Part shown: positions 3,563 to 62,029 of the stretch, in pieces
Position numbering within the stretch: the stretch's first letter is position 1
Layout of the letters: the number at the start of each line of letters is the position of its first letter
Assembly (NCBI RefSeq): GCF_003431325.1
Contig: NZ_CP010515.1
Span: 682,001-746,000, forward strand
Direction of reading: 5' to 3'
DNA: 64,000 bases
Origin: Acidilobus sp. 7A
GTDB lineage: Archaea > Thermoproteota > Thermoprotei_A > Sulfolobales > Acidilobaceae
Program-made: the position numbers and the translations under genes
Notes under the pieces: generated by a model
What the model was told of the DNA's origin: nothing
The model's input: only the letters and a program-made list of their open reading frames with translations
Databases searched by the model: none

Positions 3563-4429
3563 TTGGAAGTGATAGAGACAGTCAACCTAAGGAAGGTCTA
3601 CCCCAACGGCGTCGAGGCCCTGAAGGGGGTCTCGATCAGGCTCTCGGCCAGGGTGCCGTGCGTCATAGGTCGAAACGGCGCCGGAAAGACGACGCTAGTT
3701 AGGATACTCTCAACGCAGCTGAGGCCCACGAGCGGCGTTGCTAGGGTCCTCGGCCTCGACGTCGTGGCTGACAGGGAGGCCCTCAGGAAGAGGATATGCA
3801 GTATACCGCAGGAGGCCAGGCCCATGGGGGTCGCCTCCCCCTACGAGCACGTGACCATGTACCTCGTGGCCCGAGGCTGGTCATTATCAGAGGCCAAGAC
3901 GACGGCCAGGAGGGTCCTGAAGGAAGTGGGCCTGGCCGACTTCATGGACACTGCGACGGACGAGCTCAGCGGCGGCATGAAGAGAAAGGTCTTCCTAGCC
4001 ATGGCCCTCGCCGCCCAGGCTGAGCTGACGTTCCTAGACGAGCCAACCGCCGGCCTCGACCCGCTCTCAAGGCTAGAGACCTGGGGCCTCATGAGGCAGC
4101 TCAAGTCCTACATACTGCTGACAACACATGACATGGAGGAGGCCCAGACCCTCTGCGAGCACCTGGTGCTCCTGGACTCGGGCAGGGCGGTCACGATGGG
4201 CACCATTGAAGAGCTCATGCGCCCGCTGAGCGGCAAGGTCAGGGTTGAGGGCTACGGGGACATAGTGATAGGCGGCATGAGGATATCTTACATGACCCCG
4301 GAGGAGGCGAGGGGACTCATAGGTGACGGGCTCAGGGTTACAATAAGGCCGGTCAACCTTGATGACGTCTTCATAATAAACGGCGTCAGGCCCCCGAGCG
4401 AGGAGGCGGAGGAGGGTGGCGAGGCTTAA
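3563..4429 (+). CDS. ABC exporter ATP-binding subunit
   Basis: ATPase of about 288 residues with Walker A GRNGAGKTT, signature LSGGMKRKV, Walker B LTFLDEPTAGLD, and a switch histidine in LLTTHDMEEA. The C-terminal extra domain after EELMRP is common in ABC-2 ATPases of the CcmA/NatA type. I place the start at TTG 3563 because GGAGGA lies 8 nt upstream and the TAAAAAG TATA (3520-3526) predicts transcription from about 3547. An in-frame TTG at 3539 would lie upstream of that. The gene overlaps the permease by 14 bp, so the pair forms one transporter. Substrate unknown. Confidence 0.88.
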   Translation: MEVIETVNLRKVYPNGVEALKGVSIRLSARVPCVIGRNGAGKTTLVRILSTQLRPTSGVARVLGLDVVADREALRKRICSIPQEARPMGVASPYEHVTMYLVARGWSLSEAKTTARRVLKEVGLADFMDTATDELSGGMKRKVFLAMALAAQAELTFLDEPTAGLDPLSRLETWGLMRQLKSYILLTTHDMEEAQTLCEHLVLLDSGRAVTMGTIEELMRPLSGKVRVEGYGDIVIGGMRISYMTPEEARGLIGDGLRVTIRPVNLDDVFIINGVRPPSEEAEEGGEA

Positions 4430-5153
4430 GTTCAGCCCCAAGTTCGTTGCAACGTTCGCCTGGTTCTACGGCTGGTCCTCAGTGAAGAGGGGCCCGGGCT
4501 GGGTGCTCTCGTACATGGCCTGGCCCCTGGCCCTACTCTTCATGATATACATGATAAGCAGAGGCAGCCTCGTCAAATATGCCATACTGGGCGGCGTCAT
4601 ATCAACAGTCACCAGCAACGCCCTCAGCGCGCTGGGCGACACGGCCTTCATGAAGCTCGAGATAAAGCTCCAGGACCTGCTGGTGGCAGCGAACGTGAGC
4701 CCCATAGAGTACCTGGTCGGCATAGGACTCGGCAACCTGCTCTACTCTTTCCCAGGCCTCCTCGTCTTCCTTGCCCTGCTCGTGGTGTTCAGGGTGCTGA
4801 CGACGCCCCTTGAGTGGGCGACCCTCATAATAACGCTCCTCTTCCTTGCCGTGGGAGGGGCAGGCCTCGCCTTCCTCGGCGGCAGCAGGCTTAGGCATGT
4901 GAGGAACTCGTGGGGCCTGGCCTCCTTCCTTTCAATATTCCTCACTATGATACCGCCCATATACTACCCCTACACGGTGCTCCCGAGGCCGGCCCTCTAC
5001 GCCCTCATGGTGTCGCCTGCGACGCCCGCCGCAGTGTTCCTTCAGCAGCTCATGGCTGGCGACCCGCCGAGCCTCGCGCTCCTCGGCATATTTATAGCCG
5101 AGAACGTACTCTACGCCATGCTTGGACTTTGGCTTGGAAGGTGGGAGGATTGA
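4416..5153 (+). CDS. ABC-2 type exporter permease
   Basis: A 245-residue membrane protein with about six hydrophobic segments, for example WPLALLFMIYMI, LLVFLALLVVF and LLGIFIAENVLYAML. The block IPPIYYPYTVLPRP resembles the conserved ABC-2 permease motif where a PxxYPxxxLP loop precedes the last segments. GTG start at 4416 lies inside the end of the ATPase gene, and its stop overlaps the TTG of the zinc-ribbon gene. It is likely to export a lipid, peptide or drug-like substrate; the sequence does not say which. Confidence 0.85.
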   Translation: MARLKFSPKFVATFAWFYGWSSVKRGPGWVLSYMAWPLALLFMIYMISRGSLVKYAILGGVISTVTSNALSALGDTAFMKLEIKLQDLLVAANVSPIEYLVGIGLGNLLYSFPGLLVFLALLVVFRVLTTPLEWATLIITLLFLAVGGAGLAFLGGSRLRHVRNSWGLASFLSIFLTMIPPIYYPYTVLPRPALYALMVSPATPAAVFLQQLMAGDPPSLALLGIFIAENVLYAMLGLWLGRWED

Positions 5154-5308: not shown

Positions 5309-5436
5309 GGTCGCTTACGTCGGGGCTGCGGCCCATGAGCTAGTCGCCAGTAGGCTTTGACAATGCAGCTCATGACCTCAGGATAGGAGACGTTGACACA
5401 GTAGAGGAACATGAGTGCCGCCAGGTCCTGCGAGCC

Positions 5437-5706
<270 letters not shown>

Positions 5707-9080: not shown

Positions 9081-9242
9081 AGTGGGATCCCTTACTGAGT
9101 TACAGTAAATATAGTGGGTGTATTTAAAAATTTAGCTGACAAAGTTTCTGGAACGATTTAAAAGGTCAGGGCTTCTCTAAATTCTCTTAATAGAATAGGA
9201 AAGGGGAGGGAAAAGGGCCTCAGGGCCCAGCCCTATGGAGAT

Positions 9243-9261
9243 GTCGCCACACTGTGGCGAC
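9243..9261. repeat. Perfect 9-bp inverted repeat
   Basis: GTCGCCACA, one spacer base, TGTGGCGAC. The single-base spacer makes a tight hairpin impossible without opening pairs, so a dimeric protein-binding site is as likely as a cruciform. It lies about 160 bp upstream of the permease start and has no T-run after it. Confidence 0.5.
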
Positions 9262-9385
9262 TGTAGGGGGTCGACGCGCCTAACGCGGGCAGCCCTAAGC
9301 CTGGCTGCCACCTCATAAGTGCTGTGAAGCCATCGCTGCCAAGAATAACGGCCACCAGGTCTTTGTAGAGCCCGAGCAGTTCCGC

Positions 9386-11165: not shown

Positions 11166-12467
11166 TTAGGCTTCATTGGGCTTGATATAGCTTGATATCA
11201 AGCCCTCCTCCCTTGGCTTCACAGCCCTCAGGGCCCCTTTCATCGAGGCCCGTATCACAGGGCTCCGCCCCCTCAGGGCAACCCCGACCCACAGCTCCCC
11301 CTTCGTCTCATCAGGGTCATAGCTGTGGGGAAATCCCCGCATCCTGAGGTACCTCCGGTATATGTTTACTGCGGCCACCTTCTGCCTGTCCAGCTCAAGG
11401 CCGCACCTTGGGCATCTGAACACCCTGCCCACTCGGGTCTTCACGACGTACCCGCATCGTGGGCAGGTGCGGGAGGTGTTCTTTGGTGAAACCCTTTCTA
11501 TAACGGCCCTCTCGGAGGCCTTTCCCTGGATGAGCTTCCAAGGCGTCCTGGCGTTCCTCTTCCTCCTGCCCTTAGGCTCTCTCCTACTGACTAAGTTCTC
11601 CTTCTCCAGGTCCTCAAAGACGTGGACGCTGTTCGGGAACAGCTTGGTCAGCCCGCTCGCCAGCTTGTTTATGAAGTCCTTCTCCCTGTTGCGCTCCCTG
11701 ACATTGTACTTCTCATAGACGTACTTCAGGCCCTTGCTCTGCGCTATTCTCTTCTTCCTCTCATAAACAATCTTCATGCTCTGCAGGGGCCTCAGGTCGA
11801 CCTTGATGAAGCCTACCCTAGGCGAGAACCCGTCGAGCGACAGCTCGTTGGAGTCCCACCCAATGACTTCTTTCACGTCTACGACTTTAGCTGTCTCGAA
11901 AGGTATAAGTATCCTGTCATCCTTCAATATGACCTCCCCAACCCTCCAGCCCTCAACCCTCCTGGCGAACCACCTGCCGTTCCAGGAGACCTCCACGTGC
12001 TCCCCTGGCCTAAGCGTGATCCTGATGCTCTTCTTGTCATAGTCCACCTTCATCAGCGTTGCCTTGCACCTCGCGAACCTTCTCTCGACCCTCGGCTTGA
12101 CCTTCCTGGCTTTCCCCTTGAGGTACCTCTTCCTCCAGGACTCCATCACGGAGTAAGCCGTCCTGATGGCAGCGTCTACCCAGTGGGCGGCGTACGGGCG
12201 GTCCTGAAGGAGGTAGTCGCGGAGCCTCCTCTTAAAGGACCTGTCCTTTGGCAGATACGGGACCTTGAACTTGCTGGGCGCTATTACTTGTCCCCCCTTC
12301 TCTACCTTGGGAAACCTGTACTTCCACTCGATGTTGTCCCAGATAACGTCTATTGCCCTCTGTAGGGTTCCCTGGTACCACGTTATCAGCTCGCTGACCC
12401 TTGGGTCGCTTATCGGCACTGAGTACATTCTGACCTGCTCAAGGGTCCTCAAGGAGCTTCCTGACAC
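11166..12467 (-). CDS. tnpB: TnpB RNA-guided nuclease of IS607 type
   Basis: A 433-residue OrfB/TnpB protein. The RuvC-like catalytic acids are in place: Asp in VIGWDSNELS (about residue 205), Glu in HVFEDLEKEN (about 285) and Asp in GLELDRQKVA (about 359). A zinc ribbon, CPRCGY...CPRCGL, lies before the last one. TnpB proteins cut DNA as directed by an omega RNA transcribed across the right end, and so keep the element in place after excision. The start lies inside tnpA. No end-hairpin motif of the kind seen elsewhere in this window follows the stop, so its guide RNA end differs or is lost. Confidence 0.92.
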   Translation of the reverse strand: MSGSSLRTLEQVRMYSVPISDPRVSELITWYQGTLQRAIDVIWDNIEWKYRFPKVEKGGQVIAPSKFKVPYLPKDRSFKRRLRDYLLQDRPYAAHWVDAAIRTAYSVMESWRKRYLKGKARKVKPRVERRFARCKATLMKVDYDKKSIRITLRPGEHVEVSWNGRWFARRVEGWRVGEVILKDDRILIPFETAKVVDVKEVIGWDSNELSLDGFSPRVGFIKVDLRPLQSMKIVYERKKRIAQSKGLKYVYEKYNVRERNREKDFINKLASGLTKLFPNSVHVFEDLEKENLVSRREPKGRRKRNARTPWKLIQGKASERAVIERVSPKNTSRTCPRCGYVVKTRVGRVFRCPRCGLELDRQKVAAVNIYRRYLRMRGFPHSYDPDETKGELWVGVALRGRSPVIRASMKGALRAVKPREEGLISSYIKPNEA

Positions 12468-13056: not shown

Positions 13057-13142
13057 ATAAAAGAGTCAATATCAACCCTATAAACCTTTATGAAAAACAA
13101 AGCAGTTTCTCTACGGCGTGAGGCGTTGGCCCGACGGCCTGA

Positions 13143-13477
13143 CAAAACGAAAGGCAAGCCCTGCCCCTGGAAGGGACGGGGTAAAACATAAAACATCTGA
13201 GCACTTAAAGTTGCGTGGAACAAATAGTGTCCCCGCAAGGGGATACCCCACAGGGGCCCCGCATATCCCCGAGTCCCTGGGAGCTGGGAGGGAGGGCAAC
13301 TCCCAGCGAGGGGTAGGGGTAAAGGGCCGAAGGCCCGGCCCGCGGCCTACCGCTGGACGAGCGGAGCGGGGTGGGGTAAAACCCGCTAGCCGTGAGGTGA
13401 TGAAGGTGAGGGCGGTAAGCCGCAAACCAGTAAGCCGCCCTAAGGGAGCCCTCGCCCTTCAGGGCGGGGAGGAGGCC
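13143..13477 (+). ncRNA. Structured repeat A: candidate omega-RNA-like element
   Basis: A 335-bp block whose inverted relative is at 61691-62029. It starts CAAAACGAAAGGCA and ends in the tnpB-type end hairpin CTCGCCCTTCAGGGCGGGGA (13451-13470). A conserved CATAAAACATCTGAGCACTT (13187-13206) looks like a promoter, followed by invariant AACAAATAGTGTCCCCGC. Several stems are visible: CCCCGCAAGGGG, GCTGGGAG/CTCCCAGC, GGGCCGAAGGCCC and GGGCGG/CCGCCC. Compared with copy B, paired positions change together. It diverges from the IS607 tnpA. It is either a free-standing TnpB guide-RNA locus or a short non-autonomous element built around one. The weak open frames across it look like by-products. Confidence 0.55.
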
Positions 13478-14117
13478 AGAGCATAGCTACTGCGGCCCCT
13501 AGGGCCACAAGGCCCAGGCCCCCAGCCACGTCAATCCATGGCAGCGACAGGACCTCCTGCCCGTAGGCGTGGCCAAGCCACGCGAGCAGGGAGTTCCAGG
13601 TCACTGAGCCCGCCAGGGTGTAGGCTATGAACCTGGCGAGCCCCATCCTAAATATGCCCGGCGGCGCCGAGATGTAGGACCTCACGGCGGGCAGGACCCT
13701 GCCCGCCAGGACCGCGAGCTCCCCCCTGCCCTTGAAGAAGGCCTCGGCCCTCCTGAAGTCGGCCTCCCCCATTAGCTTGAGCGCAAGCCCCCTGCCGCCC
13801 AGGGCTGAGGCGTAGTAGAGCGCAAGGGAGCCCATGAGGTTGCCCAGCGTTGAGGCCGCCACGACGCCCAGGAGGCCCAGCTGGCCCCTGAAGTAGATGG
13901 CCGCCAGTGGCACGACGACCTCGCTTGGCACAGGTATGGCGGCGCTCTCTAAGGTCATGAGGCCGACGACGCCGCCGTAGCCCAGCTTAGCCAGGGCCTG
14001 GCCCGCGAGGTCAGTTATCAGCTTGACTATGTGGGCGTCAGGCACCTCAAGCCTATACGCCACTAAGCTTACACCAAGGAGGGCCACAGCTAGGCCAACG
14101 GCTGTTGACGCCCTCAA
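13440..14117 (-). CDS. DedA/SNARE-associated family membrane protein
   Basis: A 225-residue membrane protein. The DedA core is visible: LESAAIPVPSEVVVPLA, then LGNLMGSLALYYASALGGRG, then LAGRVLPAVRSYISAPPGIFRM and a C-terminal hydrophobic helix. DedA proteins act as lipid transporters or flippases in membrane homeostasis. TTG 14117 starts about 30 bp after a TTTTAAG TATA box. The last dozen residues (WPPPRPEGRGLP) are encoded by the end hairpin of structured repeat A, so the original C-terminus was replaced by the insertion. The core domain is complete, so the protein is probably still functional. Confidence 0.85.
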   Translation of the reverse strand: MRASTAVGLAVALLGVSLVAYRLEVPDAHIVKLITDLAGQALAKLGYGGVVGLMTLESAAIPVPSEVVVPLAAIYFRGQLGLLGVVAASTLGNLMGSLALYYASALGGRGLALKLMGEADFRRAEAFFKGRGELAVLAGRVLPAVRSYISAPPGIFRMGLARFIAYTLAGSVTWNSLLAWLGHAYGQEVLSLPWIDVAGGLGLVALGAAVAMLWPPPRPEGRGLP

Positions 14118-21416: not shown

Positions 21417-21466
21417 CGCGGGGCTGTCGTAGGGAATAGCTTAATAAGACGGCATTGCTATCACCT

Positions 21467-21502
21467 GACCTCCTCCCCGCCCTAGAAGGGCGAGGCTTTC
21501 AG
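21467..21502 (-). repeat. Solo end-hairpin of a tnpB-type transposon
   Basis: Read on the minus strand: CTGAAAGCCTCGCCC, loop TTCTA, GGGCGGGGAGGAGGTC. It differs from the 5437 copy by paired changes in the stem (GCCC/GGGC against GCC/GGC) and shares the same outer bases. No open frame for a transposase is close; it lies between the GH116 and glycosyltransferase genes. Confidence 0.6.
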
Positions 21503-21600
21503 CTTAAGTTCAAGCAATTGTTGTGGCGCGCCCCTTTACCCATTTTATCTTTCAGGCTGCGCCCATTATGGGGGCTAAACTCGTGGACCTGCCATCGATC

Positions 21601-25202: not shown

Positions 25203-25288
25203 GCCCAAGCTAAGACTTAGTCCCATTTTCTTTTTGTCAGGGCCTTGGCTTCTTTATTATAAGCCTTGGCCGCCCAGCCTAAGGCGGA

Positions 25289-25702
25289 ATGACGCAGCCC
25301 CTGGACTGCGACGAGTACCAAAGGTGGATGAGACAGGCTGAGCACACCCTGAGGTCCATAGAGGCCGACCTGGGCTTCGGCAGCTACTCATGGGCCTGCT
25401 TCAAGGCCCAGCAGGCCGCCGAGCTGGCGATTAAGACCATGCTCAGGGCCATGAGCAGGCCCGCCTTCGGCCACAACCTAGTGGCCCTCTTCAATGACCT
25501 GGCCGAGCCCTGCGGCAACGTCAGCGACAGGCTGAGGTTCTGCGTTAGTTACCTGGACAAGATGTACTCCACAGCCCGCCGCCCTGACGCCCTGGTGGAG
25601 GGGGTGCCCTTCGAGAGGTTCATCAGAGAGGAGGCTGCTGAGGCCCTCAGTTGCGCCGGCCTCATTATCAGCTGGGTGAGGGGCTGCTCATCATGTCGCT
25701 AG
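25289..25702 (+). CDS. HEPN-domain protein of a HEPN-MNT toxin-antitoxin pair
   Basis: A 137-residue helical protein: SYSWACFKAQQAAELAIKTML is the HEPN core helix, and RPAFGH fits the R-x4-H RNase motif, followed by NLVALFNDL. HEPN partners of MNT proteins are ribonucleases or are modified by the MNT partner. TTATTATAAG about 27 bp upstream gives a leaderless ATG 25289. It overlaps the MNT gene by 10 bp, so both are made together. The antiviral or stress role is family knowledge. Confidence 0.88.
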   Translation: MTQPLDCDEYQRWMRQAEHTLRSIEADLGFGSYSWACFKAQQAAELAIKTMLRAMSRPAFGHNLVALFNDLAEPCGNVSDRLRFCVSYLDKMYSTARRPDALVEGVPFERFIREEAAEALSCAGLIISWVRGCSSCR

Positions 25703-61394: not shown

Positions 61395-61690
61395 TCACCC
61401 CTGTTCCCCCGCGCCCCGCTCGGGGTAGTGCATGGGGCGCTCAGGGTTACCTGGGGGCCCCACGCCCTGAGTAACCCTCGGGGAGAGCCTGAGGACCTTC
61501 ACCCCCTCACAGGGGACCTCGCCGATAGACATGATGGTATAATTAACCTTGAAACCTATGTGAAGCGCGAAGCAGCTGCAGAAGGCGCCTCGCGCCTTGA
61601 CTACGCGGGTGGCATCGCTGTAAACTGGGGAGTTAACAAAGGCCGCCACGTATGTCGGGGCCCAGGGATCGGAGGTTGGGCCACTGCTCT
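61395..61690 (-). other. Unassigned open stretch beside structured repeat B
   Basis: On the minus strand a frame reads TYVAAFVNSPVYSDATRVVK, ARGAFCSCFALHIGFKVNYT and VPCEGVKVLRLSPRVTQG. It looks partly protein-like but has no start of its own and enters from the repeat at 61691. It may be a decayed gene end or chance. No other feature is seen between 61321 and 61690 apart from the creatininase promoter. Confidence 0.2.
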
Positions 61691-62029
61691 GACCTCCTCC
61701 CCGCCCTGAAGGGCGAGGGCCCCTTAGGCGGCTCATAGGTTCATGGCTTACCGCCTTCACCTTCACAGCCTCACAGCTGGCGGGCGCATATGCGCCCACC
61801 CCGCCCGCTCGTCCAGCGGCAGGCCGCGGCCGGGCCTTCGGCCCTTTACCCCTACCCCTCGCCAGGGGTTGCCCCATCCCCTCCCCAGCTCCCAGGGGCT
61901 CGGGATATGTGGGGCCCCTGTTGGGGCATCCCCTTGCGGGGACACTATTTGTTCTGCGATGCTTTCAAGTGCTCAGATGTTTTATGCCTTACCACGCCCC
62001 TGAAGGGGCAAGGCCTGCCTTTCGTTTTG
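61691..62029 (-). ncRNA. Structured repeat B: candidate omega-RNA-like element
   Basis: Inverted relative of repeat A. On the minus strand it runs from CAAAACGAAAGGCAGGCC (62029 side) to CTCGCCCTTCAGGGCGGGGA and AGGAGGTC (61691). The promoter-like CATAAAACATCTGAGCACTT and AACAAATAGTGTCCCCGC are identical to A. Elsewhere the arms differ in matched pairs: GGGCGG/CCGCCC in A is AGGCGG/CCGCCT here, and A's GGGT-AAA-ACCC hairpin becomes GGGCGC-ATAT-GCGCCC. No transposase gene is within reach. Confidence 0.55.

Follow-up and report, generated by a model that had tools for sequence, protein, structure and literature searches.

Stand-alone (trans-encoded) omega-RNAs have been reported for IscB systems, as have guide RNAs of non-autonomous IS605 elements, and in these the omega-RNA locus lies away from the nuclease gene, as it does at the locus described here. 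Palindrome-bearing relatives of IS605 that carry no transposase gene, known as PATEs (palindrome-associated transposable elements), have palindromes near their termini and have been described in Haloquadratum, including a 52-bp form made of the ends only (PMC3119063), and in Halanaerobium, where the element contains part of the left end (LE), the final 58 nt of tnpB, and all of the right end (RE) (PMC7290912). Additionally, SMN1, a 320-bp MITE of Sulfolobus islandicus, is said to be mobilised by the transposase of ISC1733 (PMC3718332). In tnpB-bearing systems such as ISDra2 (PMC8612924) and SisTnpB1 of S. islandicus (PMC10640517), the omega-RNA or reRNA is structured, overlaps the 3′ end of tnpB and the right end, and takes its guide from the flanking DNA, while the TAM (TTTAA for SisTnpB1) equals the target motif at the left end.

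The two repeats analysed here, copies A and B, are PATE-like, since they share near-terminal palindromes, the lack of target duplication and of a transposase gene, and descent from IS605-type elements through internal deletion; the two PATE papers do not consider their elements as RNA, whereas the present elements have a covarying omega-RNA and a separate 5′ RNA domain and are found in several families of an order. Their RNA resembles that of ISDra2 and SisTnpB1 in all the respects listed above, but it is encoded without tnpB, its expected TAM is TGAC instead of TTTAA, and its 5′ domain consists of zinc-finger codons or of a rearranged substitute. SMN1, compared by description only, is like copies A and B in size, host group, and reliance on the transposase of another element, and homology with it is a lead. 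Plasmid MITEs of Sulfolobus known from the literature were considered and set aside as another element.

The window, meaning the whole stretch of 64,000 nucleotides that was analysed, corresponds to positions 682001-746000 of the single-contig, 1.539-Mb genome of Acidilobus sp. 7A (G000). Copies A and B are similar over about 340 alignment columns, and the similarity ends abruptly between TG(A/G)C and AAAAC on one side and at GG(C/T)CAG on the other. Based on the structure of empty sites, copy A, a tnpB-less IS200/IS605-type element with an omega-RNA as judged from its alignment, genomic copies, and limits, occupies positions 13144-13479 on the plus strand (336 bp), and copy B, a second element of the same family recognised by alignment and a covariance-model match, occupies 61689-62028 on the minus strand (340 bp). 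Both repeats proposed by the earlier note are real, as they align end to end with sharp limits, the coordinates first given for them being off by a few bases.

Copy A is preceded on the same strand by the target motif and expected TAM, TGAC (13140-13143), assigned from a tally of insertion sites and from empty sites. It begins with a left-end hairpin (13158-13182), the left end being shared with an intact tnpB element, followed by an AT-rich, putative promoter stretch with a TATA-like CATAAAAC (13183-13199) that is kept in every full copy of alignment A3. The 5′ RNA domain, of the type designated X (13229-13258), is composed of a GTCCCC-GCAA-GGGGA(T) hairpin and then a CCC/GGG hairpin, and the omega-RNA core (13260-13479) combines the degenerate last ~20 codons of tnpB with a 3′ scaffold, forming eight helices. 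The last part of the core contains the right-end or guide-proximal hairpin CCCTCGCCCTTCAGGGCGGGG (13449-13469), supported by alignment and covariation, and the predicted guide is the flanking DNA at 13480-13499, assigned by analogy with IS605 biology and different in each copy. In copy B, the core spans 61689-61911 on the minus strand, with a covariance-model match of 208.9 bits, and the guide is predicted at 61669-61688 on the same strand. The predicted folding of each copy beats 100/100 dinucleotide shuffles (z -3.6 for A and -4.6 for B), and an Rfam scan of the whole 64-kb window gave no family match.

An intact tnpB element (G000:C1 67.86-69.4 kb) has a 3′ end to which query positions 120-338 correspond; it is the one intact copy of the IS605-type parent in this genome and is located about 0.6 Mb from the window copies. 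The parent has the same left end as the copies (GAAGCGAGAGGCAAGCC...), followed by a 401-codon tnpB open frame (P0001) with Pfam matches to OrfB_IS605 and Cas12f1-like_TNB. The shared 3′ block opens with the last ~20 tnpB codons (HIPKSLGPRGWGNPWRGIGVKG and stop), and the last 225 nt of the copies represent the 3′ end of the parent's tnpB together with its omega-RNA, the guide-RNA scaffold; the core of copy A matches at about 87%. The tnpB-less layout is accordingly a left end, a 5′ stretch of about 70 nt, the tnpB 3′ end with the omega-RNA, and a right end. This comparison with the complete tnpB element of the genome, which revealed a shared left end and 3′ block, bears out the tnpB-type end that had been proposed and shows that the copies derive from an IS605-type tnpB element. 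The statement that no tnpB lies inside the copies is true in that neither tnpA nor tnpB is present, but the degenerate last ~20 codons are retained, and in two copies the reading frame of TnpB residues 361-401 can still be faintly traced. The block is also not simply a decayed tnpB 3′ end, the case that the earlier note had set against its own proposal: the core derives from such an end, but its pairs are compensated, and conservation extends to a separate left end, the promoter-like stretch, and the 5′ RNA domain even though the gene is absent.

In TnpBs of the P0001 type, D202, E325, and D371 are invariant, and the usual RuvC-II Glu is replaced by Gly in the subfamily (GYPKEI or GHPK motif), so that the nuclease activity is only putative. 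A shifted catalytic Glu is known in some TnpBs. Upstream of the tnpB gene of G000, the place of tnpA is taken by a frame of ~47 codons (locus L061, about 9177-9320, minus strand) with a DUF7557 match and a sub-threshold match to VapB antitoxin. At seven loci of several relatives (L148, L152, L163, L172, L174, L180, and L184), the tnpB frame extends across the omega-RNA, entirely or for the greater part, giving a tail of ~60 residues.

The earlier note described the structure as present twice, which holds for copies A and B, but the genome carries eight near-full-length copies, namely A and a further seven that are 85-89% identical to it, as well as truncated forms, including several partial copies and ~30 further sites with the right-end part only. 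The right-end hairpin is found at about 41 places, and the sister species G001 has one further full copy. When the covariance model was searched through relatives, the RNA was found in 68 of the 147 genomes of the order, and only three RNA-bearing genomes outside the order were found among 197 genomes of the class; relatives of the element are present across an order of heat-loving archaea. A pattern scan for the X hairpin in the named genomes matched one contig of Caldisphaera and gave two hits in unrelated bacteria, which were taken as chance. One match of 254 bits outside the order (G167:C23:24134-24353, family f12) is due either to transfer or to a contaminated draft of 93% completeness. 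The omega-RNA core is also found on tnpB elements of a Sulfolobus virus (H3, SMV1, 25271-25494) and of two plasmids (H1, NC_021914; H2, NC_006425), which are possible vehicles of spread.

Shorter derivatives also occur. G000 holds roughly twelve ends-only elements, 39-45 bp long, with TTAC followed by AACTGAAAGCCTCGCCC...GGCGGGGAGGAGGTCAG; they are apparently fusions of the left- and right-end hairpins that have spread on their own. Two related elements of this kind were located in the window by covariance-model search, both on the minus strand, one of 39 bp at 5435-5473 (TTAC followed by AACTGAAAGCCTCGCC...GGCGGGGAGGAGGTCGG) and another at 21465-21505. Loci L012, L014, L022, and L029 represent further internal deletions. 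Additionally, L061 contains two similar neighbouring structures on the minus strand (about 3976-4060 and 4505-4600; GGGCCGGGC...GATGAGG...GCCCGGCCC), which are possibly small guide RNAs of another kind.

All copies in G000 start after TGAC (TGGC for copy B) and finish in CAG. In a wider tally, TGAC precedes 27 of 28 elements with no preference at base -5, a result that holds partly by construction, since TGA was demanded by the search pattern, which leaves the unconstrained -5 base and the C as the chief informative positions. The empty allele of G001 at the site of locus L005 is uninterrupted, with 64 nt identical through TTGAC followed by CCTCTC, and a second empty site is present in G001 at the L002 locus. 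The corresponding site of L006 in G003 was rejected as a clean empty site because other sequence lies between the flanks. Two of the copies interrupt genes, named from reading their translations: L004 (G000:C1 1096364-1096703) a cystathionine-synthase-like gene and L005 (G000:C1 74451-74794) an ATPase-like gene; joining the flanks of either yields an uninterrupted reading frame. No target duplication was seen at the insertion sites. The copies are thus inserted precisely, in IS200/IS605 fashion, behind TGAC. The 3′ flanks of the eight copies are all different, and that of L005 follows TTGAC in the empty G001 allele, so that the 3′ flank behaves as an omega-RNA demands, being variable and matching an empty target behind the TAM. 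As in PATEs, the hairpins at 13158-13182 and 13449-13469 lie near both ends, insertion takes place 3′ of a short fixed motif without target duplication, and an element of IS605 descent has no transposase or tnpB gene and keeps only the 3′ end of tnpB. These precise insertions and the two empty sites uphold the proposal that a non-autonomous element had spread as a unit coding for RNA.

The Y1 transposase family gave no match in G000, G001, or G019. In the Sulfolobaceae-like genomes G092, G114, G130, G136, and G119, a Y1 tnpA adjoins the related tnpB, and the ancestral autonomous element accordingly had the order tnpA-tnpB-omegaRNA. As no recognisable TnpA is encoded in G000, the element is probably immobile there now.

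The structure of the core comprises 47 pairs. In a plain MAFFT alignment of 18 tnpB-linked and tnpB-less cores from the own genus and a second genus of the family, an alignment not fitted to the structure, 93% of cells are paired, and 42 double-change cells were counted, compared with 16.9±3.7 in shuffled alignments and at most 15 in slid structures. In a larger alignment of 76 sequences from 22 genomes, which was fitted to the structure and hence leans towards it, double changes occur in 36 of the 47 pairs (217 cells against 69±9 shuffled). Among the tnpB-less copies of the own genus, the pair is kept in 25 of 34 single-sided stem changes against a random expectation of 18%, where pure transitions would by our reckoning keep about half and shared changes were counted more than once. 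Helices 3-6, which are internal and far from the ends, are retained through compensatory change. Paired changes have thus preserved the RNA stems throughout the order, in copies with and without a linked tnpB, and the scaffold, like other omega-RNAs, is homologous to the tnpB 3′ end and has a conserved secondary structure. The suggestion that the RNA is kept by selection on pairing is supported by double changes well above the shuffles in both alignments. Among the individual stems that had been put forward as compensatory, GCTGGGAG/CTCCCAGC (helix 3) and GGGT/GGGCGC (helix 6) gain strong support from the additional copies; support for GGGCGG/CCGCCC (helix 7) is weaker, with no double-change pairs in the MAFFT alignment and four of five in the structure-fitted one, where few sequences contribute. 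The guide-proximal hairpin has a role in transposition at the DNA level as well, and its conservation alone is no proof of an RNA; part of the covariation may be older than the loss of tnpB.

The 5′ domain takes several forms. Where tnpB is linked, the two zinc-finger knuckles (CSLCGE and CPRTGK) are encoded by complementary codons, TTCCCTRTGYGGGGA pairing with TCCCCRCAYRGGGAA, which form a stem of 13-15 bp around a GCCCAC/GTGGGC hairpin (z -3.6 to -7.6), which is present in tnpB genes of the subfamily, for example at L061:8018-9223 on the minus strand. Paired changes in this stem alter the protein, with CTG TGC/CGC ACA (R-T) in G000, CTA TGC/CGC ATA (R-I) in G092, CTA TGT/CAC ATA (H-I) in G061, and TTG TGT/CAC ACA AGG (H-T-R) in G156. 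The tnpB-less copies of type Y retain the stem with new sequences, such as TGTAGAGGGA/TCCCTCTACA and GAGGGAGGGA/TCCCTCCCTC. For arms picked by hand, the count of double-change cells was 28 against 8.0±2.6 shuffled and at most 5 in slid structures, an upper estimate because pairing guided the choice of arms and decayed or indel-bearing copies were omitted. In type X, to which copies A and B belong, TCCCC-GNAA-GGGGA is followed by a GCCC/GGGC hairpin, and the modules of the tnpB-type 5′ domain appear in a different order, as if circularly permuted; since X has little covariation of its own, the permutation is a conjecture. An origin of the window copies' 5′ domain in a single deletion step is not supported because the order of the stem halves differs from that in the tnpB version. 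The X domains of families f1, f3, and f11 can be aligned at 50-83%.

Copies from one genus or genome, whether or not they carry tnpB, group together in the core tree, with support of 100/99 for G000 and G001 and 97/95 for G092. Within G136, two X copies group with one tnpB type (99/94) and another with a second type (99/86), and a single clade of all X cores is rejected (p-AU 0.0004). Taken with the alignable X domains, the tree indicates that X 5′ domains are common to several families, whereas each core follows the tnpB found locally. Either gene conversion among the repeats or selection for cores that suit the resident TnpB would give this pattern. Pairing amounts to 95.5-100% in G000, G001, and G092, where TnpB is present, and to 84% in G019, 85% in G153, and 77% in G097, where no full-length relative of TnpB was found; G068 and G052, with only distant TnpBs, show 92-94%. 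The contrast, which is confounded by copy age and by a model partly trained on G000 and G019, fits upkeep by TnpB in trans and decay without it. As some copies persist without a cognate TnpB, use in trans is unnecessary for short-term persistence.

Based on these observations, we consider it likely that copies A and B are RNA-only, non-autonomous IS605 elements and that a resident TnpB uses their omega-RNA in trans or did so until recently. The simpler account, that they are plain PATEs moved via DNA ends recognised by TnpA, with the RNA scaffold as functionless ballast, has precedents in the deletion derivatives of Haloquadratum (PMC3119063) and Halanaerobium (PMC7290912); shorter coreless forms have multiplied as it would predict (the ~39-45-bp ends-only elements and L012, L014, L022, and L029), and old copies would be explicable without TnpA or cognate TnpB. 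It is nevertheless rather improbable, as it leaves the compensation of helices 3-6, the 5′ domain retained or re-invented without coding, and the higher pairing in the presence of TnpB to be accounted for otherwise.

A role for the RNA other than guiding TnpB, such as regulation of TnpB mRNA or titration of TnpB, seems very unlikely: every copy has an intact guide-proximal end with unique sequence beyond it, the loci are unrelated, and copies in TnpB-less genomes look more decayed, even though copies do persist in G019, G153, and G002 without a cognate TnpB and a sponge would likewise need a TnpB-binding scaffold. The use by the IS607 TnpB beside copy A (11166-12467) that the earlier note envisaged has proximity in its favour and is scarcely credible. 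The RNA covariance model has no match near the 3′ end of that gene, the protein has no PF01385 match at the limit used and matches P0001 over 51 residues only, and the core of copy A matches instead the IS605-type TnpB element 0.6 Mb away.

For the preferred reading of a trans-used omega-RNA, the following course of events can be envisaged. The element is placed precisely behind TGAC without target duplication, and its stems are kept by paired changes whether or not tnpB is linked. Transcription would start from the left-end promoter and pass through the right end, with ~20 nucleotides of flanking DNA serving as guide; this RNA may be bound in trans by a resident TnpB from the same subfamily, which, so guided, would cut the empty allele (TGAC plus guide), after which the element would be copied back (homing) or kept (retention). 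Movement itself would depend on TnpA from an autonomous or visiting element. A more far-reaching reading, which we offer tentatively and regard as somewhat doubtful, envisages an RNA-only OMEGA lineage spanning several archaeal families that has shed all proteins, possesses its own rearranged 5′ domain, has repeatedly taken up cores matching the resident TnpB, and, by borrowing TnpA and TnpB much as SINEs use LINE proteins, spreads or persists.

While PATEs are already known, elements that are conserved RNA genes with their own 5′ domain, together with the stem formed by zinc-finger codons, seem to be new; the literature searched, whose coverage excluded the primary paper on stand-alone omega-RNAs, contained no report of either. 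Omega-RNAs are usually read as the tail of the tnpB mRNA, whereas here they look like units of selection in their own right, numerous copies with numerous guides possibly serving a single resident nuclease, so that guiding of TnpB in trans can be tested directly in hosts that can be cultivated. A natural experiment on which parts of the RNA matter without coding constraint is additionally provided by the tnpB-less copies, and it has brought to light a stem concealed within the tnpB codons for the zinc finger, in which changes of protein residues go together with changes of the RNA pair.
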